Below are positions 5,912 through 19,476 of a stretch of DNA of 36,210 nucleotides, piece by piece. This DNA is from Streptomyces agglomeratus (lineage in GTDB: Bacteria; Actinomycetota; Actinomycetes; Streptomycetales; Streptomycetaceae). The number at the start of each line of letters is the position of its first letter. The stretch's first letter is position 1. A program made the translations under genes and the position numbers. The stretch covers positions 1-36,210 of the forward strand of contig NZ_MEHJ01000003.1 of NCBI RefSeq assembly GCF_001746415.1, in the 5' to 3' direction. A model generated the notes under the pieces. The model did no database searches. It was not told the DNA's origin and saw only the letters and a program-made list of their open reading frames with translations.

Positions 5912-6235
5912 TGCCGCCAGTCTGCCACCGTCTGTCTGATCAAGTCGCCTTCTCTGGCCGGTGTGGCGGGATTGTCGCTGGTGGAGCGGTTGCGGCTGCT
6001 GCCCGTTCCGCTCAACCGCCGCGACCGCGTCACTCGCCGCCTGCGCATAGTCGGCGCTCGTCTTCGTGCGCTGGCGTGGAAGGCGGTTCGGCTCAGCACC
6101 TGGCAGTTTCTGAAGGGCTTCGGATACACGGTCGGCGCCTGGGCGGCGGCGGAGCTCCTCGGGGCCTCACGCAGTGACACGCTGGCCGGTCTCCCGACGT
6201 TGACTGGAACTTGGGCGCACTGCTTCACGGCGTAA
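5909..6235 (+). CDS. Uncertain 108-codon frame, possible transposase remnant
   Basis: An open frame of 108 codons whose first half (AGLSLVERLRLLPVPLNRRD) faintly resembles the N-terminal helper domain of ISAs1-type transposases (LLE.L..IPDPR.RRG). The second half (RLSTWQFLKGFGYTVGAWAA) does not follow that family. Its ATG lies inside the right arm of an inverted repeat and has no clear RBS. It may be a decayed insertion sequence or not a gene at all. Confidence 0.25.
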   Translation: MCRQSATVCLIKSPSLAGVAGLSLVERLRLLPVPLNRRDRVTRRLRIVGARLRALAWKAVRLSTWQFLKGFGYTVGAWAAAELLGASRSDTLAGLPTLTGTWAHCFTA

Positions 6236-6363
6236 AACTGGCTGCGGTCACAGGCTCAGAGTTGCCAGTTCACCCGATCGTGCCTTCTTCAGTCAGGGAC
6301 GTACGCTTCACCGTCTGCGACTACAAGGACGGGCGCAACTACCCCGGTAATTACGTGACATAG
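6178..6363 (+). pseudogene. Unrecognised protein C-terminal fragment
   Basis: After a stop at 6175 the plus strand reads about 60 protein-like residues without a start codon: DVDWNLGALLHGVKLAAVTG, then SELPVHPIVPSSVRDVRFTV and CDYKDGRNYPGNYVT, followed by a stop at 6361. The composition is much less arginine-rich than a shadow frame. I do not recognise it; it could be the end of a gene broken upstream. From 6364 to 6549 I see no supported gene. Confidence 0.3.
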
Positions 6364-6549
6364 CCACACCATCTATATCTGCCATCGATGACCGCGCACC
6401 CATCCACGCGGTGGATGTGTATCAGTTGAGCGAACGCGTTGCCGTTGAACGGCTTTACGCTCCGGCTCGGCCCACGATCCGCGCTGTAGAAGACCGCGGC
6501 CGGGAAGCAGTCGCCAGTCACCGCGTGGAATGCCCGCGACGGCGCGGCA

Positions 6550-7029
6550 TCACGCCGGGGCCAGCCGGTGGAAGGCGCGCCCGTAATACACCATCGGCTC
6601 CCCGTCACCGGCGGCCGCAATCCCTACCTCACCGATGAGAATCAGGTGGTCTCCCGCCTCATGGCGGTCGTAGACCGCGCACTCCAGCGTGCACAGGGCA
6701 TCTGGCACGACGGGCAGACCCCCGAGCGTGTGCGCGGCCCAGCCTCCGCCGAATTTGTCGGCGCTCTTGGAGGCGAAACGCCGAGCCACCTCCTCGTGCC
6801 ACGGGCGCAGCACGCTGACCGCGAAATGGCCGCAGTGAAGGAACACCGGGAAGGAGTCCGCCGTTCGGGCCAGGCAGACGAGCACGAGCGGCGGATCCAA
6901 CGAGACCGAGCAGAATGAGCTCGCGGTGAAGCCGCGCGGCCTGTCCCGGTCGTCCCGGGTGGTCACCACAGTGACGCCGGAGGGGAAGCAGGCCAGCGCC
7001 GCGCGGAGCTCGGACGGCGTGGCGGTCAC
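6550..7029 (-). CDS. Flavin reductase-like FMN-binding protein
   Basis: A 159-residue split-barrel flavin reductase, the family that supplies reduced FMN/FAD to two-component monooxygenases. Visible marks are the N-terminal LRAALACFPSGVTVVTTRD, the flavin-binding GFTASSFCSVSLDPPLVLVC, CGHFAVSVL, and GDHLILIGEV near the end (the GDH motif binding NADH in this family), followed by MVYYGRAFHRL. The start is a GTG at 7029 that overlaps the upstream stop as GTGA, so translation is coupled to the SRPBCC-PDZ gene. It is the last gene of the operon. The monooxygenase partner is not evident nearby; it may act elsewhere or reduce flavin for another operon product. Confidence 0.88.
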   Translation of the reverse strand: MTATPSELRAALACFPSGVTVVTTRDDRDRPRGFTASSFCSVSLDPPLVLVCLARTADSFPVFLHCGHFAVSVLRPWHEEVARRFASKSADKFGGGWAAHTLGGLPVVPDALCTLECAVYDRHEAGDHLILIGEVGIAAAGDGEPMVYYGRAFHRLAPA

Positions 7030-7730
7030 GCCGTGAATGGCCGGAGCGTGAGTTCGACGGCGCGGTCCTTGAGAGCGAGTACCGCCACCTGGCCCGCGAC
7101 GGCTTCGTCGAGCCACCGGTGGAAGTCCTCCATCTCCTTCAGAACAGCTCCGTCGATGGCCCGGATCTCGTCTCCTGCCTTCAGTCCCGCGGCCTCCGCG
7201 GCGGAGTTGACGACGACGTCCTGAACCACCATCCCCGTCTCCGCCGTGACGCCGAGTGGGATGATGCCGGTCTTCGGCGGGGTCAGAGTCTTGTGGAACT
7301 GGAAAGGCCGGTGCTCCAGGTACGCGCCGAGCCGCTCCAGGTAGTGCCACCAGTGGTGGTCGTAACCGTCGAACTCGAGGCGCGATCGGAGCGACTCGCC
7401 GAAGCCCGTATGACGGACCGCGATCTTGGTTCGGGAGTCGTCCAGGCAGGTGAAGTCCACCTTCACCTGGGTGGGAGTGTCATTCCCCGGTACGTCCCAG
7501 TCGTACTCACAGGAGACCTGAGGGGTAATCGCACTGAGCCGGGCGTTGAAGACCAGCTCCACCCGTCCGCGCCGGTTGAAGGACCAGCACAGCCGCTCAC
7601 CGACCTGCAGCGGGATCTCGGCGCTGTGCAGCGCGAGCCAGGCACGCACCTCCCTCGGGTCGGTCCATGCCTGCCAGGTCCGGGCCCGGGTCGCGTGGAT
7701 CAGGTGCTCGGTCGAAGTCTCGAGTACCAC
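7026..7730 (-). CDS. SRPBCC domain fused to PDZ domain
   Basis: A 234-residue two-domain protein. Residues 1-140 form an SRPBCC/AHSA1-like domain: TEHLIHATRARTWQAWTDP, FNARLSAITPQVSCEYDW, and WWHYLERLGAYLEHRPF as the C-terminal helix closing a hydrophobic pocket. From about 150 a PDZ domain follows (GIIPLGVTAETGMVVQDVVV, NSAAEAAGLKAGDEIRAIDG). SRPBCC domains bind lipids, polyketides or other hydrophobic ligands; PDZ domains bind peptide C-termini. The joining of the two in a peptide-gene operon is notable. AGGAGG is best spaced for GTG at 7730; a TTG two codons earlier (7736) is possible. The 3' end overlaps the flavin reductase start by four bases. Confidence 0.8.
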   Translation of the reverse strand: MVLETSTEHLIHATRARTWQAWTDPREVRAWLALHSAEIPLQVGERLCWSFNRRGRVELVFNARLSAITPQVSCEYDWDVPGNDTPTQVKVDFTCLDDSRTKIAVRHTGFGESLRSRLEFDGYDHHWWHYLERLGAYLEHRPFQFHKTLTPPKTGIIPLGVTAETGMVVQDVVVNSAAEAAGLKAGDEIRAIDGAVLKEMEDFHRWLDEAVAGQVAVLALKDRAVELTLRPFTA

Positions 7731-7764
7731 GTTCAACCTCCTGCTGGTGAATACCGCTCGGTGA

Positions 7765-9108
7765 TCACTGTTCTTCGGCCGCGTGCAGGGCCTTCTCGAC
7801 GGCGCTGTTCGACAGGGTGAGCAAGCCGATGAGCGCGACGCCCGCCCCGAACAGGCCGCCGATGCTGTAGACGGCGCTCAGCCCCAGATGAGAGGCGATT
7901 ACGCCGGAGGCCAGGATGCCCACGGGCATCAGACCGAACGTCACCAGTCGGTTCACACCGCTGATACGGCCGGTGAGATGCTTCGGCACCATGGCTTGCC
8001 GCAGGGAGACCGTCGTGACGTTCCAGGTCATGCTCGTATAACCGGTGATTCCGAGTCCGAGCGCCACGAGCGCGATGTCGTCGGTGAAGCCCAGGATGGT
8101 GAAACCCAGCGCCCCGGCCACCGACCCCCCGAGACTCGCGTGCGCGGGCCCCAGCCTGTGCGTGAATTTCCTGCAGGTGAGTCCCGCCGTCACGCTGCCG
8201 ACCGCGACGGACGACAGGAGCAGCCCGTACCCGACGTTGCTGATACCCAAGATCTGGCGGGCGTAGAGCACCAGCATGGCGAGTTGGCCGGCCGTGCACA
8301 TGTTCTTGAGGCCGGCGACCACCGTGAACACGCGGAGCACCCGGTGGCGAGCGAGCCAGCAGATGCCTTCCACGATTTCGCCGCGCATGGACGGACGGTG
8401 GCCGGCCCCCGTGGTCGCGGTCTTCCGGTCCGCCTGGGTCCCGTGGTAGTCACCGCGCATGAGGAAGGAGCAGACGGCACTGAGGCCGAACGAAACGGAG
8501 TCGGTAAGAGCGGGTACGGCACGGCCGAGGGAGTAGAGCACGCCTCCGCCCGCAGGGCCGAGGAACTTGAGGGCCGCTGTGTTGGCGCTCATCAATCTGC
8601 TGTTCGCGCGTTCGAGAGCATCCCGGTCCCGGGACACGACCATGGGCAGGATGGACTGCCGTGAACTGTCGTAGACCGTCTCGATCGCCGTGATGCTGAA
8701 CGCGACGGCCATCAGGAGCGGGATCGACACCCAACCAGCGAGCACCGTGGCGAACAGAACCGCCAGGATGCAGCACCGGATGGCGTCCGATACCCACAGC
8801 ACCCTCCGGCGGTCCCAGCGGTCGGAGAACGCCCCTCCCATCAGGGCCAGCACCAGCCACGGAAGTCTGTCCGCGAAACCCACCAGCGACAGACGGGTGG
8901 GGTCGCTGGTGATGTCGGCTGCCAGTAGCGGCAGAGCGGTAACGGTCAGCCCGTTGCCGGCGCTGGATATCGTCCAGCCGACCCAGAGAAGGGAGAAGTC
9001 ACGGCCAAGTCCGCCTGAGAAGGTCGTTCGGAGCCGTCTCAGCCCGCGTGTCGGCGGTTCCGCCCCCTGGCCCGGTTCGCCGCCCGTGTGCTCGGCCTGC
9101 TTCGTCAT
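7765..9108 (-). CDS. MFS exporter
   Basis: A 447-residue major facilitator of the drug-efflux type with about 12 hydrophobic segments. After a soluble N-terminal stretch come DFSLLWVGWTISSAGNGL, then the loop 2-3 motif A variant GGAFSDRWDRRRVLWVSD, and a central loop with GDYHGTQADRKTATT between the two six-helix halves. The family exports small amphipathic molecules or siderophores using the proton gradient. The ATG overlaps the upstream stop as ATGA, so it is coupled to the TPR-like gene. Its position makes export of, or self-resistance to, the product of this locus the natural role, by inference. Confidence 0.88.
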   Translation of the reverse strand: MTKQAEHTGGEPGQGAEPPTRGLRRLRTTFSGGLGRDFSLLWVGWTISSAGNGLTVTALPLLAADITSDPTRLSLVGFADRLPWLVLALMGGAFSDRWDRRRVLWVSDAIRCCILAVLFATVLAGWVSIPLLMAVAFSITAIETVYDSSRQSILPMVVSRDRDALERANSRLMSANTAALKFLGPAGGGVLYSLGRAVPALTDSVSFGLSAVCSFLMRGDYHGTQADRKTATTGAGHRPSMRGEIVEGICWLARHRVLRVFTVVAGLKNMCTAGQLAMLVLYARQILGISNVGYGLLLSSVAVGSVTAGLTCRKFTHRLGPAHASLGGSVAGALGFTILGFTDDIALVALGLGITGYTSMTWNVTTVSLRQAMVPKHLTGRISGVNRLVTFGLMPVGILASGVIASHLGLSAVYSIGGLFGAGVALIGLLTLSNSAVEKALHAAEEQ

Positions 9109-10385
9109 CCCTGTCCGCTTCCCTGACCGGAGGCCGGGGCCCCGGCCGGTCCGCGTGCCGGTACGTGGTCGGGTTCCCTCGGCGAGTGTGCTGCTGGATC
9201 GAGATCGAACAGCAGGTGTGCGGCGCGATCGGCCCTGTGGTCGTCACCCAGCTCCTCCCAGCACCGCACTGCCCGGTAGGCAGCTGTCGCTCCCCGCAAC
9301 GTTCCGGCCTGCGCTCCTCGCTCGAACTCCTCCGCAGCCGCCCGCACATCACCGCCTCGCTGGGCGAGAGCCGCCACGTGGAACCTGGACGAGGCCTCAG
9401 CCCCGTCCAGGCGGAGCAGTGTGTCGGCGGCCGCTTGCACGCGCCCGGGCGGTGACAGCCGGGTTCCGGCCTTGACCGTCACATCGGCGAGCAGCCGGCG
9501 GTTCTCCCGCGCGCAGTGCCGCTGCTGCGGGTTCTCGGCGAGGCGCTCGGTGTCGGCGTCCGCGGCATAGGCCTCCTCGAGAGCCTGCCGCGCGCCCTCC
9601 ACGTTTTTGTCGCCGAACCGCTGGAAGGCCGCCGCCCTCAAGAACCGGCTCTCGGTGAGTGCTCGGAGCCAGGGCTCCGTGTCCGACAGTCCGCTGAGGA
9701 GTCCTTCTCCGTACACCGCCCAGTCGCGGTCGCTGTCCGGGGCGTACCGGTCGCGACGGAGGATCGAGATGAGCTGGGCGCAGGAGAGCACGCGCAGCGC
9801 CGGAACGGTCCCCTCCGTGGCCAGCCGGGCGAAGACTTGGGCGGGGGCGTCCGAGGCACGACGGTGCTGGCGAAGAGCACGGGCGGCCTCGTACGCCAGA
9901 TACTGCCCCGGCCCGTCAGCGGGGCGGCCGATCTCGCCCACCAGACGCACCGCGAGTCCGTAGAACCCGAGTTGGGTGAGGACACAGACAAGGACGGCTC
10001 TGCGCTGCGTCGGCTGCTCGTTCCAGCAGTCCACCTGCCCCGCAAGGAAATGCCAGCCCTCGATGCCTGTGGAGACAGCCACGTCCCGAGGCGTACTGCC
10101 AAGGAAGGTGTCGTGCCTCGACTGCCTGGCCAGTCGCGACCGTGCGTCGGCCGCCAGGATCAGCGCGCAGTACGGTGGGGGCGGCTCTCCCGTGCTGTCG
10201 CGCAGCAGATCGAGGAGGAGCGGTGTGCTCTCGGCGCATATGGGGCCGGCCGGGGCATGGGTCAATTCGAACCAGGCGCTCCAGGTCTGCCGGAGCCGCA
10301 AGGTGTCGAGAACGCGCGCGCGACCGAATTCCAATTCGGCCCAGGCGACATGGTTTTTCCGGGTGTAGGGAAGTCCGTTTGCCAT
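9105..10385 (-). CDS. TPR-like helical-repeat protein of unknown function
   Basis: A 426-residue, largely helical, soluble protein. From about residue 120 onward it reads as degenerate tetratricopeptide-type helix pairs (YLAYEAARALRQHRRASDA, LRALTESRFLRAAAFQRFGD, VEGARQALEEAYAADADTER, AVRCWEELGDDHRADRAAHL), ending in a Pro/Gly-rich tail. The first 100 residues (NHVAWAELEFGRARVLDTLR) match no domain I can name. I see no HExxH, radical-SAM CxxxCxxC or ATP-grasp motif. The ATG at 10385 has GGAGGG upstream. It directly follows the 16-codon gene and hairpin and overlaps the MFS start by four bases. A scaffold or peptide-binding role is inference. Confidence 0.7.
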   Translation of the reverse strand: MANGLPYTRKNHVAWAELEFGRARVLDTLRLRQTWSAWFELTHAPAGPICAESTPLLLDLLRDSTGEPPPPYCALILAADARSRLARQSRHDTFLGSTPRDVAVSTGIEGWHFLAGQVDCWNEQPTQRRAVLVCVLTQLGFYGLAVRLVGEIGRPADGPGQYLAYEAARALRQHRRASDAPAQVFARLATEGTVPALRVLSCAQLISILRRDRYAPDSDRDWAVYGEGLLSGLSDTEPWLRALTESRFLRAAAFQRFGDKNVEGARQALEEAYAADADTERLAENPQQRHCARENRRLLADVTVKAGTRLSPPGRVQAAADTLLRLDGAEASSRFHVAALAQRGGDVRAAAEEFERGAQAGTLRGATAAYRAVRCWEELGDDHRADRAAHLLFDLDPAAHSPREPDHVPARGPAGAPASGQGSGQG

Positions 10386-10436
10386 TCCGCCGCCCTCCGG
10401 CTTACATCGGTGATTTCACGACACGCGTTCCAAGAG

Positions 10437-10471
10437 GGATGGGGAAGGAGATCGGATCTCCTTCCCCATCC
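10437..10471 (-). terminator. 16-bp perfect hairpin after the short peptide gene
   Basis: GGATGGGGAAGGAGAT (10437-10452) and its exact complement ATCTCCTTCCCCATCC (10456-10471) flank a 3-base loop. It sits 19 bases past the stop of the 16-codon gene and 52 bases before the TPR-like gene, within one minus-strand transcript. There is no T-run after it, so partial termination, attenuation or 3'-end protection of a short transcript are all possible. Confidence 0.85.
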
Positions 10472-10489
10472 GCGTCCCGAGCCCTGGGC

Positions 10490-10540
10490 TCAGTAGTCCT
10501 CGCTCATCAGGACATCGAAGTCCTTGTTGGCCTCAGTCAT
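10490..10540 (-). CDS. 16-residue peptide, candidate RiPP precursor or leader peptide
   Basis: A 17-codon gene encoding MTEANKDFDVLMSEDY. The ATG at 10540 is preceded by GAGGGGAGG with five bases of spacing, one of the strongest RBS in the window, and the frame closes with TGA at 10490. The peptide is acidic (E3, D7, D9, E14, D15) and ends in Tyr, with no Cys and one Ser and one Thr. A 16-bp hairpin follows and the operon of TPR-like, MFS, SRPBCC-PDZ and flavin reductase genes continues downstream. Such an arrangement is usual for precursor peptides of ribosomally made natural products, where a hairpin lets the precursor be made in excess. It could instead be an attenuator leader peptide, although no single amino acid is enriched. 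I know of no described family with this sequence. Confidence 0.6.
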   Translation of the reverse strand: MTEANKDFDVLMSEDY

Positions 10541-10814
10541 GGCAGCCTCCCCTCGCAGCAGGTCCGATCGGTCGACTTCCGACCTGCAGCGAGAATGACC
10601 TGACGTGGTTTCAGTGCGGTGTCTCCGTGGTGTCTCCGGCGGATGCGCACGCTGCGGCAGATACGGTGACCTGCGGTTTCCTCGGCCAAAATCAATCCGC
10701 TGACAATGCGTAGCCTTCAACGAACGTCCGTCCCGGGGCAAAGGTGAACCCGCCCTGGCCCGGTCTCGAGCACATCGGAGCGGCACGATCTCCGATTGGC
10801 TAGGGTCTTTGGCC
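10541..10814. promoter_or_regulatory. Divergent control region between peptide operon and aldo/keto reductase
   Basis: Two hundred and seventy bases separate the minus-strand peptide gene from the plus-strand aldo/keto reductase start. No ORF with an RBS is visible. It must hold both promoters and is the likely site of action of the nearby SARP, but I could not identify a clear pair of heptameric direct repeats or confident -10/-35 boxes. Confidence 0.4.
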
Positions 10815-10943
10815 ATGGAGCATCGTTCACTCGGCCGTAGTGGCCTGATGATCAGCGAGATAGCCTTCAGAAATTGGCTCACTCACGGCGAGTCGGTCGA
10901 CAGGGTCAGTGCCCTGTCATGTGTACGGGCCGCGCTGGAGGCT
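10815..10943 (+). pseudogene. Aldo/keto reductase, 5' part (split by IS607 element)
   Basis: The first 43 codons of an aldo/keto reductase: MEHRSLGRSGLMISEIAFRN, WLTHGESVDR, then a helix ending CVRAALEA. This is the N-terminal beta hairpin and first strand typical of the Kv-beta/YghZ-like branch. The frame is cut after GAGGCT at 10943 by foreign DNA. Its continuation, beginning GITSFDTADVYA, lies at 13553 in the same phase. Codons 10815-10943 plus 13553-14449 give an uninterrupted protein of 341 residues. The split gene faces away from the peptide operon and shares its control region. Confidence 0.9.
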
Positions 10944-10990
10944 CACCAACTTCATCAGTCATCCCTAGTGTTGTGCATAGAGTTGTGCGC

Positions 10991-11616
10991 ATGGAGTTGC
11001 TGCGTATGTCCAAAGCCGCGAAGCGCCTGGGGGTCCACCCGATGACGCTGCGCCAGTGGGCGTTGGAAGGCAAGATTCCGTTCTCCTGGTAGGGCATGAG
11101 CGCCGGTTTTCCTCGGCCGATGTGGAGAACATGAAGCGTGGCAGCGACTCCGCAACTTCCCGGCCCCGGCTGGAGGTTCTGTACGTGCGCGTCTCAGGCT
11201 CGTCCGGACAGGAATCGTCGCTGGCCGCGCAGGAAGAAGAGCTGCGGGCCACGTCCACCGGCACGGTGGTGAAGGTCGTCAAGGACCGTGGTTCCGGCCT
11301 GCGGGAGAACCGGCCTGGCCTCAATAGGATGTTGGCGATGGCCTGCGACGGCAGCGTGAGCGTAGTGAGGGTGACGCATGAGGACCGCCTCGCCCGGTTC
11401 GGTGTCGGCTGGCTCAAGCGCCTGTTCGCCTTTCACGGCGTCACCCTCGAAGTCCCGCACCCGAAGAAGTCCGGCGGCCGGGATGAACTCCTCGAAGACT
11501 TCGTCTCCCTGGTCACCACCTTCGCGGGCCGTCTGTACGGCATGAGGTCGGCGGAAGCCCGCAAGCGGCTGCTCGCCGAAACCGGCCAATGCACCACTGG
11601 GGATCGTGCCGAGTGA
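10991..11616 (+). pseudogene. tnpA: IS607-family serine recombinase TnpA, frameshifted
   Basis: The reading begins MELLRMSKAAKRLGVHPMTL, a MerR-like helix-turn-helix, and runs to GKIPFSW, where a TAG follows at 11090. One missing G there (TGG-TAGGGCATGAG instead of TGG-GTAGGGCATGAG) would restore VGHERRFSSADVENMKR and the catalytic domain in the next frame. That domain has the serine-recombinase YVRVSGSSGQES motif with the nucleophilic Ser after RV, then VVKDRGSGLRENRPGLNRML and a C-terminal helix ending GMRSAEARKRLL. The stop at 11614 overlaps the tnpB GTG. As written, only a DNA-binding fragment could be made from the natural start. Confidence 0.87.
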
Positions 11617-13541
11617 GCCGGAAACTCCAGATCGCCGAGGGCGAAACCTCCCGCACCGCCTGCGCCCGCGCCATGCTGCGCACGGGCGTAGATGAGAAGA
11701 CCGACGAACTCCTGCCCGTCTCCGTGCTGGCGGAACGGGTCGGCTGGACCGTGGATCTGGTGTCCGGCATGGTCGGCGCGCTGACTGCCGAGCACTGGAA
11801 TGCCGCCGATGTGGACGTGCTGGCCTCCGGGGAGGATGCCGGGGGCCGCAAGCTGCCGTCGAACGCGTGGATGGCGCTGCGTCGTTTGGGCTGGACCGTC
11901 GCCGCTTTGGAGGGCGTCAAAGTCAATGACCGGATCGTGCGCATGGCCCAGGAACAGGCCGGGCGCACTCTGCGGTCGGCGAAGTGGCGGGCCGACCTCA
12001 CCGCTGGGGTCCTGGCGGCCTGGCCCGCTGATCCGGCCAAGCGCACCGTGGGCGAGTGGGACGCGGTGCGTGATGCGGTACCCGGCGGGCAGCATCTGCC
12101 GTCGAATGAGCATGACCGGATGCCGGTCGATGTGTTCGAGGTGGAGTCCGCGCCCAAGGCAGCGCGGATGCTGCTGCTGTCGGCGTGCGACGGGCAGCAG
12201 GCCGCCATCGAACGCGGCGACGAACCCGGCCGGGCGCTGCTGCGGTTGCAGCTCCCCACCCGCCCCGACCCGGCCTCGTACCGGGACTGGACGTGGGTCG
12301 CCTGCCCGATCACGCTGCCGCCCACGATCCCCGCCGGCGCGGTGCTGCACCTGCCGACCCTGCGCATCCACCAGGGCAAGGTGCGGGCTGATCTCGCTTA
12401 CACCCACGTCGTCCCCAAGACCCAGCGGACCGGGCACACGGTCGCGCTCGGCGCGGACTGGGGCCTGAACACCCTCCTCAGCGCAGGCGCGGCCCGGCTC
12501 CACCACGACGGACGGATCACCGTTCTCGGGGCTGGGGGCATGTTCCGCGCGGACGGTGTCCTCGCGAAACAGCACCGGCTGCGCCGCGAGAGCGAGTAGC
12601 TGCACGCCAAGGCAGACCACTATCAGCGACTCATCGGTGGGGCCGAGCGACACGCGTTGGCCGCCAAGCACGTGGTCCTGCGGGATGAGATCCAATGTGT
12701 GTCCGACCGGCGTTCGCACCTCAACGACGCCCTTGCCCGGGCTGCCGCCCTGTGGGCCGTCGATCAGGCCATCGCCGCCTCGGCGACCGTGATCTATGTC
12801 GAAGACCTCCGCTCGATGGAGACCAAGGGCATGGGCCGCAGCGTCAACACGCGCATGTCCCAGCAGGTACGTGGGGAGATCGTGGACCGGATGCGACACC
12901 TGGCCGCCGAGGCGGGTATCGCCGTCGTGACAGTCCCGGCCCGGAACACCTCCAAGCACTGCCCGCAGTGTCTTGTACCGCTGCGGCACCGCAAAGCCCC
13001 CGACCGCCCCACCACGCCGGGCTGGAAGTGGGCCATCTGCCCGTCCTGCCGCTGGCAGGGAGACCGTGATCAGGGCGCCTGGCGGCGCATCGCCGCACGC
13101 GGCCTCACCCACCAAGCGAAGACCATGACCGACCGCGTCAGCGGTTCCATGGCCATCCGCAGCGTGGTGGACAAACTCGAAGCCAAAGCCGTGGTCACCC
13201 CGACCACCGCGAAGACCCGCCGGGACCGGTCCAAGACCGGACTCACCCGGCGACAGAACACACGCCCCGCGCCCAGGCGACGCAGGGCACCCTCCCCCAC
13301 CGGACCTTCGGGTCCGGCGGGCAAGCGTCCGGAGGGACACGCTCACACGGGCCGGACCCGGCTGCCCCGCGCAGCCCACCGGCACCAGGGCGTGACAACG
13401 ATCAGCACACCCACCACGGTCGGTCACCGGCCACGCGGAGCAGCGCTGGGCGCGGGCTTCCACCTGCACGCTCACGCTACCCCTCCACAGTGGGCAGATC
13501 CCGTGCCAGACACTACGTCTGACATGGGATCGCTTAGCTGA
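11613..13541 (+). pseudogene. tnpB: TnpB RNA-guided nuclease with internal amber stop
   Basis: Starts with GTG at 11613, overlapping the tnpA stop as GTGA. A TAG at 12597 interrupts the frame between HRLRRESE and LHAKADHYQ; downstream reading resumes in the same frame. The RuvC catalytic residues are in LGADWGLN (Asp, before the stop), IYVEDLRSM (Glu) and GDRDQGAW (Asp), the latter two after it, with a CPQC...CPSC zinc ribbon between. So neither half alone has the full active site. With the stop read through the protein would be 642 residues, long for TnpB because of an N-terminal addition and a Pro/Arg-rich C-terminal tail from about 13195. That tail overlaps the place where the guide (omega) RNA is normally encoded and ends 11 bases before the element end. 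Confidence 0.88.
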
Positions 13542-13552
13542 TTAGAGACGCT

Positions 13553-14449
13553 GGCATCACGTCGTTCGACACGGCCGATGTGTACGCACAGGGCGCTGCC
13601 GAGCAACTGCTCGGCGAGGCACTGGCCGATGTACGCCGCTCCTCCGTGGAGATCGCCACCAAGGTGTACCTGCCGACCGGCACGGGACCGAACGACCGTG
13701 GGCTGTCCCGCAAGCACATCGTGGAGTCGTGCCATGCCTCGCTGCGCCGACTGGGGACCGACTACGTCGACCTGTACCAGGCGCACCGTTTCGACAGCCG
13801 CGTCCGACTCGAAGAGACCCTCGTCGCCTTCGACGACCTGGTGCGGCAGGGCAAGGTCTTGTACCTGGGCGTCTCGGAGTGGACCGCGCTGCGGCTCGCC
13901 GGTGAGCTGGGCCTGCGCAGCCGGATCGTGTCGAATCAGCCGCAGTACAACATGCTGTGGCGGGTCATTGAGCCTGATGTGCTGCCACTGTGCCGCAAGG
14001 AGGGGATCGGCCAACTCGCCTTCCAGCCGCTGGCACAGGGCGTGCTGACCGGGAAGTATCGTCCGCGAAGGACTCCCCCACCGGGTTCCCGGGCGGCCGC
14101 CGGAGGCCGTGCCCCGAAGTTCATCGGCAGGGTGCTCGGAACCGAGCTGGTGGAGCGGGTGCAGGGGCTCCGTCCGATCGCGGATGCGGCGGGGTTGTCC
14201 ATGGCGCAGCTCGCGATCGCGTGGACGCTGCAGCAGCCCGGTGTCTCGGCCGCGATCACCGGCGCCTCCCGTCCCGAGCAGGTGACGGAGAACGCCGAGG
14301 CGGCCGGCCGGCACCTGGACGCCGAAGTGCTGCAGCGCATCGACGACCTGCTCGGCGGTCTGATCGACCGCGATCCGTCGAAGACCGCCCGGATGATGGC
14401 GGTCGAGCCCAGCTGGCAGTCCACACCGCCGCCACCGCAACCGGGATGA
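13553..14449 (+). pseudogene. Aldo/keto reductase, 3' part
   Basis: Two hundred and ninety-eight codons that continue the gene begun at 10815. The catalytic tetrad of aldo/keto reductases is visible: Asp and Tyr in FDTADVYA, Lys in EIATKVYLP, His in LYQAHRFD. The C-terminal cofactor motif AAITGASRPEQVTEN is also present. These enzymes reduce carbonyls with NADPH in the cytoplasm. Without the 5' part it lacks the first strand and has no proper start. It ends convergent with the SARP gene, 124 bases away. Before the insertion it would have been a tailoring-enzyme candidate for this locus. Confidence 0.9.
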
Positions 14450-14573
14450 CACCCGTCCGGGCGGCTCCAGCCGATACGGACGGCCGGCTGCCACGGCTGT
14501 CGACGGACCCGGGACCAGCGACACCGGCTTTCCGCCGCTGCCTGGTGCAGGGGTCGGATCACCGCGATCGGCA

Positions 14574-15482
14574 TCACACCTCTGGCGGCCTCACCCGATT
14601 CCGGTGACAAGGCGTCAAGCAGGCGACGTGCGAGGCGCGACCGCCGACGGACTCCATGGTCTTCAAGAACTGACGGGACGGGGGCCGGCCTGGCCGACCG
14701 GCCACAGCCGGTCCGCTCGGTAGGACCGCGGGCCGCGGCTCGAGACCCGGATCGGCCCTGAGTATCCGCTCGTGGAGAGCCAGTAGCCCGGGCCTGGGCT
14801 CGATGCCCAGCTCCTCGCGGAGCATCCGACGTGTGCTCCGGTAGACCTCAAGCGCCTCCCTACGGCGGCCGGTTCGGTACAGCGCGAGCATCAGCTGGGC
14901 TCGCAGCTCCTCGCGGTACGGGTGTGCCGCGACCAGCGCATCAAGCTCCGGCACCAGCCCGGAGTGCCAGCCGAGCTCCAGGTCGACACCGATGCGCTCC
15001 TCCTGCAGCGCCAGGCGTGCTTCCTCCAGGCGGCGCACCTCCTCGTCGACCAGCCCTGCCTCCGCCACATCCGCGTAGGGCGCACCGCGCCACAGCGAGA
15101 GGGCGCCGGTGAACAACTGGCTCGCCTGCTCCGGTTCACCAGCGTGCCGCGCATGGCGTCCTTGAGCCACCAGGTCCTCGAACCGCTGCGCGTCGAGCTC
15201 ACCGGGACCGACCACGACGGCATAACCTCCGGCGTGGCGGCGGATCCGCATCGCGTCGCCGAGGGCCTGACGCAGCCGCAGGATGTACACCTGCAGGGTC
15301 TTATGGGAGTTCTGAGGCCGTTCGCCCTGCCACAAGGCATCAATCAGGGTGCTGACCGGTACCGGATGACCGGCCCGGGTCAACAGCACGGCGAGCAGCC
15401 GTCGGACCATCGGGGCTTTCAGGCCGACCTCCAGGCGATCGACACGAACGGTCAGTTCACCGAGGACACCGAGTTCGATCAT
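14574..15482 (-). CDS. SARP-family transcriptional activator
   Basis: A 302-residue SARP. Residues 1-95 form the OmpR-type winged helix (MIELGVLGELTVRVDRLEVG, MVRRLLAVLLTRAGHPVPVS, LIDALWQGERPQNSHKTLQV, YILRLRQALG, HAGGYAVVV). Residues 98-245 form the bacterial transcriptional activator domain (YREELRAQLMLALYRTGRRR, EALEVYRSTRRMLREELGIE). SARPs bind heptameric direct repeats and switch on secondary-metabolite clusters. The ATG at 15482 has GGGGGAG upstream; an extension to 15704 would overlap the divergent promoter and is unlikely. It is the only pathway-type regulator near the peptide operon. Confidence 0.92.
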   Translation of the reverse strand: MIELGVLGELTVRVDRLEVGLKAPMVRRLLAVLLTRAGHPVPVSTLIDALWQGERPQNSHKTLQVYILRLRQALGDAMRIRRHAGGYAVVVGPGELDAQRFEDLVAQGRHARHAGEPEQASQLFTGALSLWRGAPYADVAEAGLVDEEVRRLEEARLALQEERIGVDLELGWHSGLVPELDALVAAHPYREELRAQLMLALYRTGRRREALEVYRSTRRMLREELGIEPRPGLLALHERILRADPGLEPRPAVLPSGPAVAGRPGRPPSRQFLKTMESVGGRASHVACLTPCHRNRVRPPEV

Positions 15483-15693
15483 TTGAGCACTCCCCCTCCT
15501 CGTGCAAGACACGGGCCCCGGGTCCGATTCGACGTTGCAACCGTCCCGCCGCGTCGGCCCCCGGTGACGGCCCGTCATCTGCTCGACTGTGGTGGTCCCG
15601 GGGATTGTCCGAAACCGCAGGTACATCGGATAGACAATGCGAACAATCGTGGGGGCCCGGCGTGTGCCGGGGGATCCGGCCGGAGGTGGCGGT

Positions 15694-18600
15694 GTGACAG
15701 GCACGGACGGGTCGCGGAGGAAATCACGTGCGGGCAGGCCGCAGCGGCCTGTGGATCCCGAGGCGGGGCCGGTGCAGCGGTTGGCGTGGGAGTTGCGGCA
15801 CTTGCGGGAGAAGGCCGGAGAGCCGAGCTACCGCTCCTTGGCTAAGAAGGCCCACTACTCGGCCAGCACGTTGGCGGAAGCCGCGAAGGGTGATCGTCTG
15901 CCGACGCTGGAGGTCACGCTCGCCTACGTCAAGGCATGCGGCGGGGACATGACTCATTGGGAGGCGAGATGGCAGGCTGCGTCCGCGGCGCTGGTGCCGT
16001 CCGAGGACGACCGGCTTCCGGCCGGGCAGAGCCCGCCATGCCCGTATCCCGGGCTGGCCGCATTCGGTACCGAGGACGCCGAGATGTTCTTCGGTCGCGA
16101 CGATCTGGTCAAGGATCTGCTCGAACAGATCGATCACACAGCGCGCACCGCACTCATAGCTCTCTTCGGAGCGTCGGGCAGTGGGAAATCTTCGCTGCTC
16201 CGAGCCGGTTTGCTCCCCGCATTGCCGCCGAACGTTCGGGTACTGCCGCTGACCGCCGGGGCGCACCCGCTGACCGCACTCGCTGCCGCCGTGTCCGACG
16301 CGACCGGCAGCGCGGCAGACACTCTGCGCAGCCGGCTGTCCGGCGATCGGCAGACCCTGGAAGTCGCCTTGAGAACCTGGCTCGCCGCCCAGCCGGAGGG
16401 GACGCAGGCCGTGTTGGTGGTCGACCAGTTCGAAGAGGTCTTCACCCTGTGCACCGACGCGGCCGAACGAGACGCCTTTCTCACCGCCGTCGCGGATCTG
16501 GCCTGCACCTCCGACGAGCGGATCCGCACCCTCATAGCGGTACGGGCCGACTTCTACTCCCACTGCTCCGCCCATCCGGAGCTGGTGGCAGCGCTACGCC
16601 AGGGTGTGCAGCTGCCGGTCGGTCCTCCGACCCATCAAGAACTGCGGGACATCGTCGTACGGCCGGCAGCCCGCGCGGGCGTGAGTGTCGACTCCGACCT
16701 GGTCGCCACGGTGCTCGCCGCGGCGGCCAACCAGCCCGGGGCTCTGCCGTTGCTCGCCCACGTCCTCAGGGAAACCTGGGACCGCCGCGAAGGCTCCCTC
16801 CTTCGGCTGGCGGATTACCACGCCAGCGGCGGCATGCGCGGGGCTGTCGCGCAGACCGCCGAGCGCGCGTACGGGGACCTTCCCGGCGAGCAGCAGAAGG
16901 CCGCTCGCAAGATATTTCTCCGGCTCACCGCACTGGGAGTTGGCACCGACGACACCCGGCGGCCCATCTCCCGCGGTGAACTCGACGGCATCGCCGGTGA
17001 GGCTGTCATCTCCGACGTCCTCAACCATCTCGCGGATGCGCGCCTGATCGTCCTGGACGAGGAGCGGGTCGAGGTCGCCCATGAGGCACTGATCCGTGCC
17101 TGGCCCCGTCTGCATCGCTGGCTCACCGATGATCGGTCGAGCCTGTTCGTTCACCGGCGGCTCACCGAGGCCGCCCGCACATGGGAGTCGTTGGAGCGTG
17201 ACGGCGGGGCCGTGTACCGGGGGGCGCAGCTGGCCGCCGCCCGGTCCTGGGCCGACGATCACACCGGGGAGTTGAACCAGCTCGAAAGCTCGTTCCTGGA
17301 CGCCGGCACGACCGCGGAGGCGGCCGAGCGTGACAGTACGCGGCGTCGTGCCCGTCTGCTAAAACGTCTCGTCGCCGGGATGTCGGTCCTGCTGCTGCTG
17401 GCCCTCCTCGGCGGCGGCATCGCCGTGCGGCAGCGACAGGACGCCCACCGGCAGGAGCTGATAGCCCTGTCCGAACAGTTGTCCCTGCAATCCCGCTCCC
17501 TGCTGTCCACGGATCCCGACCTGGCCGGGCTGCTGGCCGTGGAGGCAGATCATCTGCACCCTGCTGCCGAATCCCGGGGCGCAGTCCTGAGTGCGGCGTC
17601 CGCCCGCCGCCGTACCGAGCTCAATACCGGAGGCCCGGCTGTCTACGCCGTCGCGTTCAGCCCCGACCATTCACTGCTTGCCTCCGCTGCCGGTGACGGG
17701 ACGATCGGTCTCTGGGATCCGGAGCGAGGCACTCGGATCGCCTCCCTTCCCGGCCGAGCCGAACGGGCCAGGGGCGTGGGGTTCAGCGGCGACGGGAAAC
17801 TGCTCGCCGCCACGGGCAACAGCGGAACCACCGGGTCGATCACCGTGTGGGATGCGCGAACACGCCGTCAGGTGGCCTCGATGACGGAAAAAGAGATGGC
17901 GTTGGGTATGGCGTTGAGCCCCGACGGCAGAATGATCGCCGTCGGTGTCGGAGCGCACGGTGATATCGCCGTGCGTGATCTGTCCACCGGATCTCGCCGC
18001 CTCCTGCACGGTCAGGGAGGAGCTGTCCGGTCCCTGACATTCAGCCACGACAGCAAGTTGCTGGTGTCGGCCGACGGCAGTTCCGATCCGGTCGCCTGGC
18101 ACCTGTCCACCGGAAGGCCGTTCGCCCGGCTGCCGGCCGAGCACGTCGCATCGGTGGTCTTCGGACCTTCGGAGCCCGTCCTGGCGGGAGCGGCGGATGA
18201 CGGAGGAGTCCACCTGTGGGACCTCCGCAGCGACCCGCCCGTCGCACTCCCGACGCTGCCTTTGCAGGGCTCCTACGGCTGGACGGTGTCCGCACCCGTC
18301 GGTGACCGGATCGCAGTGGCCGATGAGAACGGCACAGTCACCCTATGGGACCTGCGTCACCGCCAACGCCTGCAGACCTTGCTGGACCGCGGCCGTACCG
18401 AGACGGCCTCCCTTGCCCTCAGCCAGGACGGAGCGATGCTTGCCACCGCCGGCTTCAACGGCACCATCGTTCTTCACGACCTGCGGAACACGCCTTTCAG
18501 CGGATTCGACGCGCCGGTGAACGACCTCAAGGTCAGTCCCGACGGTGCTCTGATCGCTTCTGCCGGCAACGACGGAGTCGTGCGGCTCTGGGACGTCCGA

Positions 18601-19476
18601 GGGCATCAGATAGCCGCACTCACCGGCCACCCGGACCGGGTTCAGGCGGTCGCGTTCAGCCCCGACGGGCGGCTGCTCGCCTCGGTGACACGGAACAACG
18701 TGGTCACCCTGTGGAATGTGCGACACCGGCGACACGAGACGAAACCCTTTCCGACCACCGGGCTTGGCGCCTCCACCGATATCGCCTTCGATCCCGGCGG
18801 CCGCTACCTTGCGGCCGCTACTCTCGGCCCGTTCGTCTGGGATGTGCGCGACGTCGCGTCACCCTCCCCCTTGACACCCAAGTACTCCGCCCGGCTCGTC
18901 ACGTCGTTGACCTTCAGCCGTGACGGGCGGCGCCTGGTGACCAGTAGTCCAGGGGGCTACATCAATGAGTGGGACGTCACCGGCGGCACGCTCGTCGACA
19001 GGACCGACACACACCAGGGTGCGGTTCAGGATCTCGCCCTCAGCCCTGACGGCTCGCTCATCGCGACGGCGGGCGACAGCCGGACGGTGGCGTTGTGGGA
19101 TGCCGCGACCCATCGGCAGACCGCCGTGCTGAACGGGCACACAGCACCCGTTCAGGTTCTCGCCTTCAGCCGTGACGGCCGCCTCCTCGCCTCCGCGGGC
19201 GACGACCACACGATCATCGTCTGGGACGTCATCAGCCAGAACCGCGTCGCCGAACTCGCCGGTCACAGCGGCAGAGTCCGCGGACTGGATTTCACCTCTG
19301 ACGGCGTGCTCCTCTCCGGCGGCGAGGACGGCAAAATCATCAGCTGGTCCCTCGACCTGAGCACCGCCCGGGCCGATATCTGCGCGAGGGCGGGCCGCAC
19401 CCTGACCCGCCAGGAATGGGCCGCCTACCTTCCCTCCGTTCCGTATCAGCCGCGTTGTGGCGGAAAGCGCTCGTGA
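15694..19476 (+). CDS. HTH-nSTAND1-TM-WD40 repeat protein
   Basis: A 1260-residue multidomain protein. Residues 26-85 are an XRE-like helix-turn-helix (SYRSLAKKAHYSASTLAEAA). From about 115 an nSTAND1 P-loop NTPase follows: PYPGLAAFGTEDAEMFFGRD, Walker A GASGSGKSSLL (K165), Walker B AVLVVDQFEEVF near 243, and the helical ARC-like region ending VAHEALIRAWPRL. One strong transmembrane helix (LVAGMSVLLLLALLGGGIAV) lies near 560-580. Residues 640-1220 hold about 13-14 WD40 repeats (AFSPDGRLLAS...LWDV). STAND proteins are ligand-gated switches; WD40 parts sense or scaffold. The TM helix would put sensor and NTPase on opposite sides of the membrane, or near it. GTG at 15694 is chosen for the GGAGG seven bases upstream; an ATG at 15637 lacks one. 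Confidence 0.9.
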   Translation: MTGTDGSRRKSRAGRPQRPVDPEAGPVQRLAWELRHLREKAGEPSYRSLAKKAHYSASTLAEAAKGDRLPTLEVTLAYVKACGGDMTHWEARWQAASAALVPSEDDRLPAGQSPPCPYPGLAAFGTEDAEMFFGRDDLVKDLLEQIDHTARTALIALFGASGSGKSSLLRAGLLPALPPNVRVLPLTAGAHPLTALAAAVSDATGSAADTLRSRLSGDRQTLEVALRTWLAAQPEGTQAVLVVDQFEEVFTLCTDAAERDAFLTAVADLACTSDERIRTLIAVRADFYSHCSAHPELVAALRQGVQLPVGPPTHQELRDIVVRPAARAGVSVDSDLVATVLAAAANQPGALPLLAHVLRETWDRREGSLLRLADYHASGGMRGAVAQTAERAYGDLPGEQQKAARKIFLRLTALGVGTDDTRRPISRGELDGIAGEAVISDVLNHLADARLIVLDEERVEVAHEALIRAWPRLHRWLTDDRSSLFVHRRLTEAARTWESLERDGGAVYRGAQLAAARSWADDHTGELNQLESSFLDAGTTAEAAERDSTRRRARLLKRLVAGMSVLLLLALLGGGIAVRQRQDAHRQELIALSEQLSLQSRSLLSTDPDLAGLLAVEADHLHPAAESRGAVLSAASARRRTELNTGGPAVYAVAFSPDHSLLASAAGDGTIGLWDPERGTRIASLPGRAERARGVGFSGDGKLLAATGNSGTTGSITVWDARTRRQVASMTEKEMALGMALSPDGRMIAVGVGAHGDIAVRDLSTGSRRLLHGQGGAVRSLTFSHDSKLLVSADGSSDPVAWHLSTGRPFARLPAEHVASVVFGPSEPVLAGAADDGGVHLWDLRSDPPVALPTLPLQGSYGWTVSAPVGDRIAVADENGTVTLWDLRHRQRLQTLLDRGRTETASLALSQDGAMLATAGFNGTIVLHDLRNTPFSGFDAPVNDLKVSPDGALIASAGNDGVVRLWDVRGHQIAALTGHPDRVQAVAFSPDGRLLASVTRNNVVTLWNVRHRRHETKPFPTTGLGASTDIAFDPGGRYLAAATLGPFVWDVRDVASPSPLTPKYSARLVTSLTFSRDGRRLVTSSPGGYINEWDVTGGTLVDRTDTHQGAVQDLALSPDGSLIATAGDSRTVALWDAATHRQTAVLNGHTAPVQVLAFSRDGRLLASAGDDHTIIVWDVISQNRVAELAGHSGRVRGLDFTSDGVLLSGGEDGKIISWSLDLSTARADICARAGRTLTRQEWAAYLPSVPYQPRCGGKRS

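Follow-up and report, generated by a model that had tools for sequence, protein, structure and literature searches.

We analyzed a 36,210-nucleotide stretch of Streptomyces agglomeratus DNA (contig NZ_MEHJ01000003.1, positions 1-36,210, hereafter the window, from a host genome of 9.13 Mb in 5 contigs), and in it a locus where a very short gene precedes an operon led by the gene of a tetratricopeptide-repeat (TPR) protein. The short gene (10490-10540, minus strand) encodes the 16 residues MTEANKDFDVLMSEDY followed by a stop codon, as assigned from the sequence reading and from homologues. Its ribosome-binding site, GAGGGGAGG (10546-10554, minus strand), was read from the sequence and has CGGAGGGGAGGCT as its counterpart in Streptacidiphilus. 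The operon, also on the minus strand, encodes a TPR superhelix protein of 426 amino acids (9105-10385; homologue searches and structure model), a putative MFS exporter (7765-9108; PF05977 and PF07690), an AHSA1-type SRPBCC domain fused to a PDZ domain (7026-7736; Pfam, sequence matches and a model) and a flavin reductase (6550-7029; PF01613, 1.8e-41), with 4-nt overlaps between the TPR and MFS genes and between the SRPBCC-PDZ and flavin reductase genes. An earlier note, made from the DNA letters alone, had proposed a short gene at the head of these four genes, and both the gene and the operon are confirmed. Its perfect hairpin is indeed found downstream of the short gene (10437-10471, minus strand, in the interval before the TPR gene; fold and shuffle tests), but the stem is 17 bp rather than 16 bp long, with a 1-nt loop. 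The note had also included a Streptomyces antibiotic regulatory protein (SARP) and an aldo/keto reductase (AKR): the SARP gene stands, while the AKR gene, which is divergent from the operon, is split by an insertion instead of whole.

The whole layout of mini-gene, hairpin and the same six proteins recurs in Streptacidiphilus (genome G448, locus L027) and in S. swartbergensis (locus L004). Identities to the window proteins in these two genomes are, respectively, 62% and 56% for the TPR protein, 69% and 68% for the MFS exporter, 74% and 70% for the SRPBCC-PDZ protein, 69% and 49% for the flavin reductase, 73% and 71% for the AKR, and 54% and 38% for the SARP. The corresponding mini-genes encode MAENKDFDVLMSEDY in Streptacidiphilus and MSEVYNFSEVY in S. 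swartbergensis, and the final 13 codons of the window and Streptacidiphilus mini-genes, stop included, are equal except for one synonymous change.

TPR proteins of this type are rare. When the best 8000 candidates were considered, the cluster searches returned 17 clusters at E ≤ 0.001, including its own, and the profile search 21 clusters at E ≤ 1e-10. In the genus, 3 out of 392 genomes had a match, two of them weaker than that of the own genome. The profile matched 16 out of 394 genomes drawn from the family, with more than 600 bits only in the own genome and in G448 and at most 75 bits in the others. Matches at E ≤ 1e-20 were found in 2 of 394 genomes of the class and in 11 of 341 genomes of the family of G991, where the wider profile (E ≤ 1e-15) reached 16 of 341. 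The TPR protein was unmatched in a plasmid collection searched with tblastn, and no relative was found in viral contigs.

We collected 20 TPR loci with flanks, lying in Streptomycetaceae and Streptosporangiaceae. Duplicates were left out of this count (L029, L043, L047, L048 and L049, which repeat L007, L006, L005, L009 and L008, respectively), and further TPR matches lie outside it (L003, L012-L026, mostly partial matches in long frames, and L074). Known enzymes of ribosomally synthesized and post-translationally modified peptides (RiPPs) occur near the TPR genes of the relatives, including YcaO, ThiF, HExxH hydroxylases, B12-radical SAM proteins and nitroreductases. In eight Streptosporangiaceae loci, a mini-gene of 25-26 residues ending in FDVL-x4-Y (for example, MEISWDLGQVDEEAQEFDVLGNKSY) is followed by genes for YcaO, TPR, a JmjC protein (six of the eight), MFS, SRPBCC-PDZ and an alpha/beta hydrolase. 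In further loci, from the family of G991, the TPR gene is accompanied by two nitroreductases, an S9 peptidase and a MatE exporter in L050 and L051 (the latter partly by tblastn), by YcaO, a methyltransferase, an FAD protein and a flavin reductase in L052, by ThiF, two aKG-HExxH hydroxylases and a halogenase-type protein in L077, and by ThiF, a cupin, a B12-radical SAM protein and a P450 in L080. L078, L079 and L081 were grouped with L077 and L080 on the basis of gene order, protein starts and precursor rather than of their own Pfam scans. L050, L051, L077 and L079 carry two or three TPR genes each, compared to one in the window, and by eye their precursors contain two [aromatic]-[D or other]-V/L-type motifs, compared to one in the window.

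We counted as a mini-gene any open reading frame of 10-65 residues with a Shine-Dalgarno sequence, an ATG start and a tyrosine among the last six residues, lying within 350 nt upstream of the lead gene of the operon. By this rule, a mini-gene is present in all 20 TPR loci, compared to 2 out of 355 control stretches taken upstream of the remaining called genes of these loci. With the controls limited to intergenic gaps of at least 100 nt, the figure is 2 out of 232, and 56 of the 355 controls contain any such reading frame when the tyrosine is ignored. Among the 20 mini-genes, 15 have a C-terminal tyrosine and 14 have the motif [DE][FYW]x[VTIL][LM] ahead of the tail, which occurs in 1 of the 355 controls. 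Of the two control matches, that in L007 is probably due to chance. That in L050 lies upstream of 17628, a gene with a nucleotide-binding-type start as judged by eye, behind which one more TPR gene begins (L076); since this mini-gene precedes another TPR operon, it is probably itself a precursor. This second L050 mini-gene, MDELRNGVELPESEEALLADFGVLVAAEYDYSLGG, resembles the L077 and L079 precursors. According to the earlier note, its proposal would be refuted by homologous operons in which the short gene is missing or keeps no conserved residues, and the comparison did not refute it. No operon among the 20 lacks the mini-gene; as for the residues, the FDVL-x4-Y tail is common to the window, Streptacidiphilus and the eight Streptosporangiaceae loci, but not to S. 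swartbergensis. In the YcaO-type loci, the proportion of synonymous differences (pS) exceeded that of nonsynonymous ones (pN) in 21 out of 21 pairs of mini-genes, few-site comparisons between related sequences that involve seven of the eight loci (L008, one codon longer, was left out). When six of the precursors were compared to NCBIfam, no family matched.

When the 104-nt gap of the window was shuffled 100 times, a 17-bp hairpin was never reached, and the 155-nt stretch reaching from the short gene up to the start of the TPR gene folds with a z-score of -3.66. Because no T-run follows it, the hairpin is not a classical terminator, and we rejected this assignment. The hairpins after the mini-genes of Streptacidiphilus and S. 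swartbergensis are 13 bp and 14 bp long, and the level of 0 out of 100 shuffles was reached in 5 of the 14 TPR loci included in this test (the window, L027, L004, L050 and L051). Upstream of the short gene, three 8-mers lie at 11-bp spacing (10605-10636, minus strand; 0 out of 200 shuffles), resembling a SARP operator, as direct repeats at 11-bp spacing are typical of such operators. Streptacidiphilus has three copies of GGGAAACC at the same spacing (0 out of 200 shuffles), and the repeats of L050 and L051 are at most suggestive (3 and 11 out of 200 shuffles). An Rfam scan of positions 6000-16000 returned no match up to an E-value of 0.5.

These data indicate that the 16-residue gene is real, and it very probably encodes a RiPP precursor. 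The locus combines a short encoded precursor, conserved between genomes, with adjoining enzymes and an exporter. As to possible leader and core parts, a shared [DE]FxVL stretch followed by a varying tyrosine tail is found in 14 of the 20 loci, but the motif is absent from S. swartbergensis. Taken as a whole, the most likely explanation of the locus is a RiPP-type cluster, probably under the control of its own SARP, and the presence of the mini-gene in all 20 TPR loci and of known RiPP enzymes in the relatives supports this peptide-product reading, as the earlier note had suggested.

Several observations weigh against this interpretation. The tyrosine rule was not blind, as it was chosen with the mini-genes already in view, the lead genes were picked by hand, and the 20 loci lack independence, since eight of them are close YcaO-type relatives; we read the 20 out of 20 result as strong, but for these reasons attach no P-value to it. 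The mini-gene of L053 (MIREESRDLTAMLYKACA) is weak, and that of S. swartbergensis has no FDVL motif. The window and Streptacidiphilus mini-genes are too alike for a test of selection on that pair. SRPBCC-PDZ proteins are found in 11 and flavin reductases in 7 of the 20 loci. Nine of the 14 loci in the shuffle test fall short of the 0 out of 100 hairpin level (1 out of 100 in L008 and L045, 6 to 79 out of 100 in seven others), and the 11-bp repeats do not rise above chance in S. swartbergensis, where 153 out of 200 shuffles match the best score. Finally, Pfam and NCBIfam scans of the window genes within 6550-19476 revealed neither a known primary RiPP maturase or leader protease nor a match to a RiPP recognition element (RRE, PqqD-like), and among the same genes no YcaO enzyme or LanB-type (PEARL) ligase was found. 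The earlier note had likewise named no known RiPP maturase, and the peptide-modifying component is one that we infer.

A possible division of labor can be outlined. The hairpin would let more precursor mRNA than enzyme mRNA accumulate. The TPR protein is modeled as an all-helical superhelix (pLDDT 91.8) with peptide-binding TPR proteins among its structural matches, and would bind the acidic leader around [DE]FxVL and present the short tyrosine-ended tail. The PDZ domain may bind the free C-terminus of the precursor; since the structure comparison of the SRPBCC-PDZ protein mostly concerns residues 1-144, the PDZ part rests on Pfam and on sequence similarity to PDZ chains, of the DegP type and others. 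The SRPBCC domain, flavin reductase and AKR would modify the tail through redox or ring-type reactions, and the MFS protein would export the product. Extending this scheme, we tentatively propose a RiPP superfamily in which leader binding would fall to the TPR superhelix instead of an RRE and, in the window type with its precursors of 11-16 residues, the PDZ domain might read the tyrosine C-terminus and the fused SRPBCC domain act as the maturase. Because tyrosine-ended precursors also occur with no adjoining PDZ protein (L050, L051, L078 and L080), the PDZ domain is not required for the tyrosine end.

The catalytic part could instead belong to the TPR protein itself, acting as a flavin-dependent hydroxylase of the C-terminal tyrosine fed by the flavin reductase. 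BhaC1, which acts on a C-terminal tryptophan in the pearlin pathways, is described as an enzyme that depends on FMN, contains a TPR domain and targets a C-terminal aromatic residue (PMC11002830), and in view of this precedent catalysis by the TPR protein is an alternative to be taken seriously. The tyrosine among the last six residues in every mini-gene and the flavin reductase of seven loci fit such a role. However, the predicted structure is a single all-helical superhelix without a separate flavin domain, and no flavin reductase was seen in the other 13 loci; we consider this version unlikely. The RRNPP receptors (Rap, NprR) likewise pair a TPR superhelix with an adjacent gene for a short peptide, and the peptide of the window could be a signal sensed by the TPR protein in the manner of Rap-Phr, with the remaining genes tailoring and exporting it; the window operon differs from these systems in having an exporter and redox enzymes, and we regard a signal as quite improbable. 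Harder still to credit is an attenuator that includes the hairpin and has the mini-gene as its regulatory leader peptide. A strong hairpin does follow the short gene, but it has no T-run, no single codon is repeated in series in the mini-gene, loci with no clear hairpin also have the FDVL-x4-Y tail, and the mini-genes of the relatives reach 60 residues.

Some components of the proposed RiPP-type cluster have counterparts in known systems, as far as the accessible parts of the cited reports go. The streptamidine network resembles the Streptosporangiaceae relatives in that a YcaO enzyme stands alone close to a small gene for the precursor; its precursors have 31-89 residues and an ALV motif, compared to 16 residues in the window, where no YcaO was found among the genes scanned, and no TPR or PDZ protein is named in the part of that report available (PMC8442711). 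Pearlins (BhaC1, AmmC2) share with our proposal aromatic chemistry at the C-terminus of a carrier peptide and TPR proteins in the cluster, but their tryptophan is added by a tRNA-dependent ligase, whereas in the window the tyrosine is encoded and no LanB-type match was found among the genes scanned (PMC11002830, PMC12424672). By their descriptions, the biphenomycin-type pbs cluster also includes a TPR protein, in this case a TPR-containing arginase (PMC12257519), and some Bacteroidales RiPP clusters include TPR proteins as a possible regulator or interaction protein (PMC10352776). The cluster of cacaoidin, a lanthidin-type RiPP, likewise has an SRPBCC-superfamily protein of unknown role, and the portion of the source available mentions no PDZ fusion (PMC8068269). 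TPR and SRPBCC proteins have thus been reported singly in RiPP clusters; in the open-licence literature, to the extent that it was accessible, we saw no TPR protein as family-wide partner of tyrosine-ended precursors, and no RiPP family defined by this TPR protein or by a PDZ domain turned up. The TPR protein together with a tyrosine-ended mini-gene provides a sequence handle on peptide clusters that may escape length cut-offs: window-type and YcaO-type precursors have 11-26 residues, below the range given for the streptamidine network in the available part of its report (PMC8442711). The TPR and PDZ domains are two testable candidates for precursor recognition.

The similarity of the window AKR to its relatives ends after 43 codons (10815-10943, plus strand) and resumes at 13547, the remainder of the gene (13547-14449, plus strand) being assigned by Pfam and by comparison with the relatives. 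The intervening insertion (10944-13546, plus strand, ends approximate) is presumably of the IS607 type, judging from its gene pair: a resolvase-type gene (11056-11616, plus strand) and a TnpB-like frame with a Cas12f1-like TNB domain (11589-13541, plus strand), interrupted by an in-frame TAG at 12597-12599. Since the AKR gene is split by this element, the copy of the locus in this strain may be defective, and the AKR step has probably been lost. The downstream AKR part (13547-14449) also lacks six residues found in both relatives. The SARP regulator (14574-15482, minus strand; PF03704 and PF00486) has 302 amino acids, compared to 451 in Streptacidiphilus (L027:6260-7615) and 669 in S. swartbergensis (L004:15344-17353). 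These two counterparts give weak or good matches to AAA or NB-ARC models, and that part is missing from the shorter window copy. Adjoining the SARP gene, positions 15637-19476 encode a large protein in which an nSTAND1 NTPase domain is combined with WD40 repeats.

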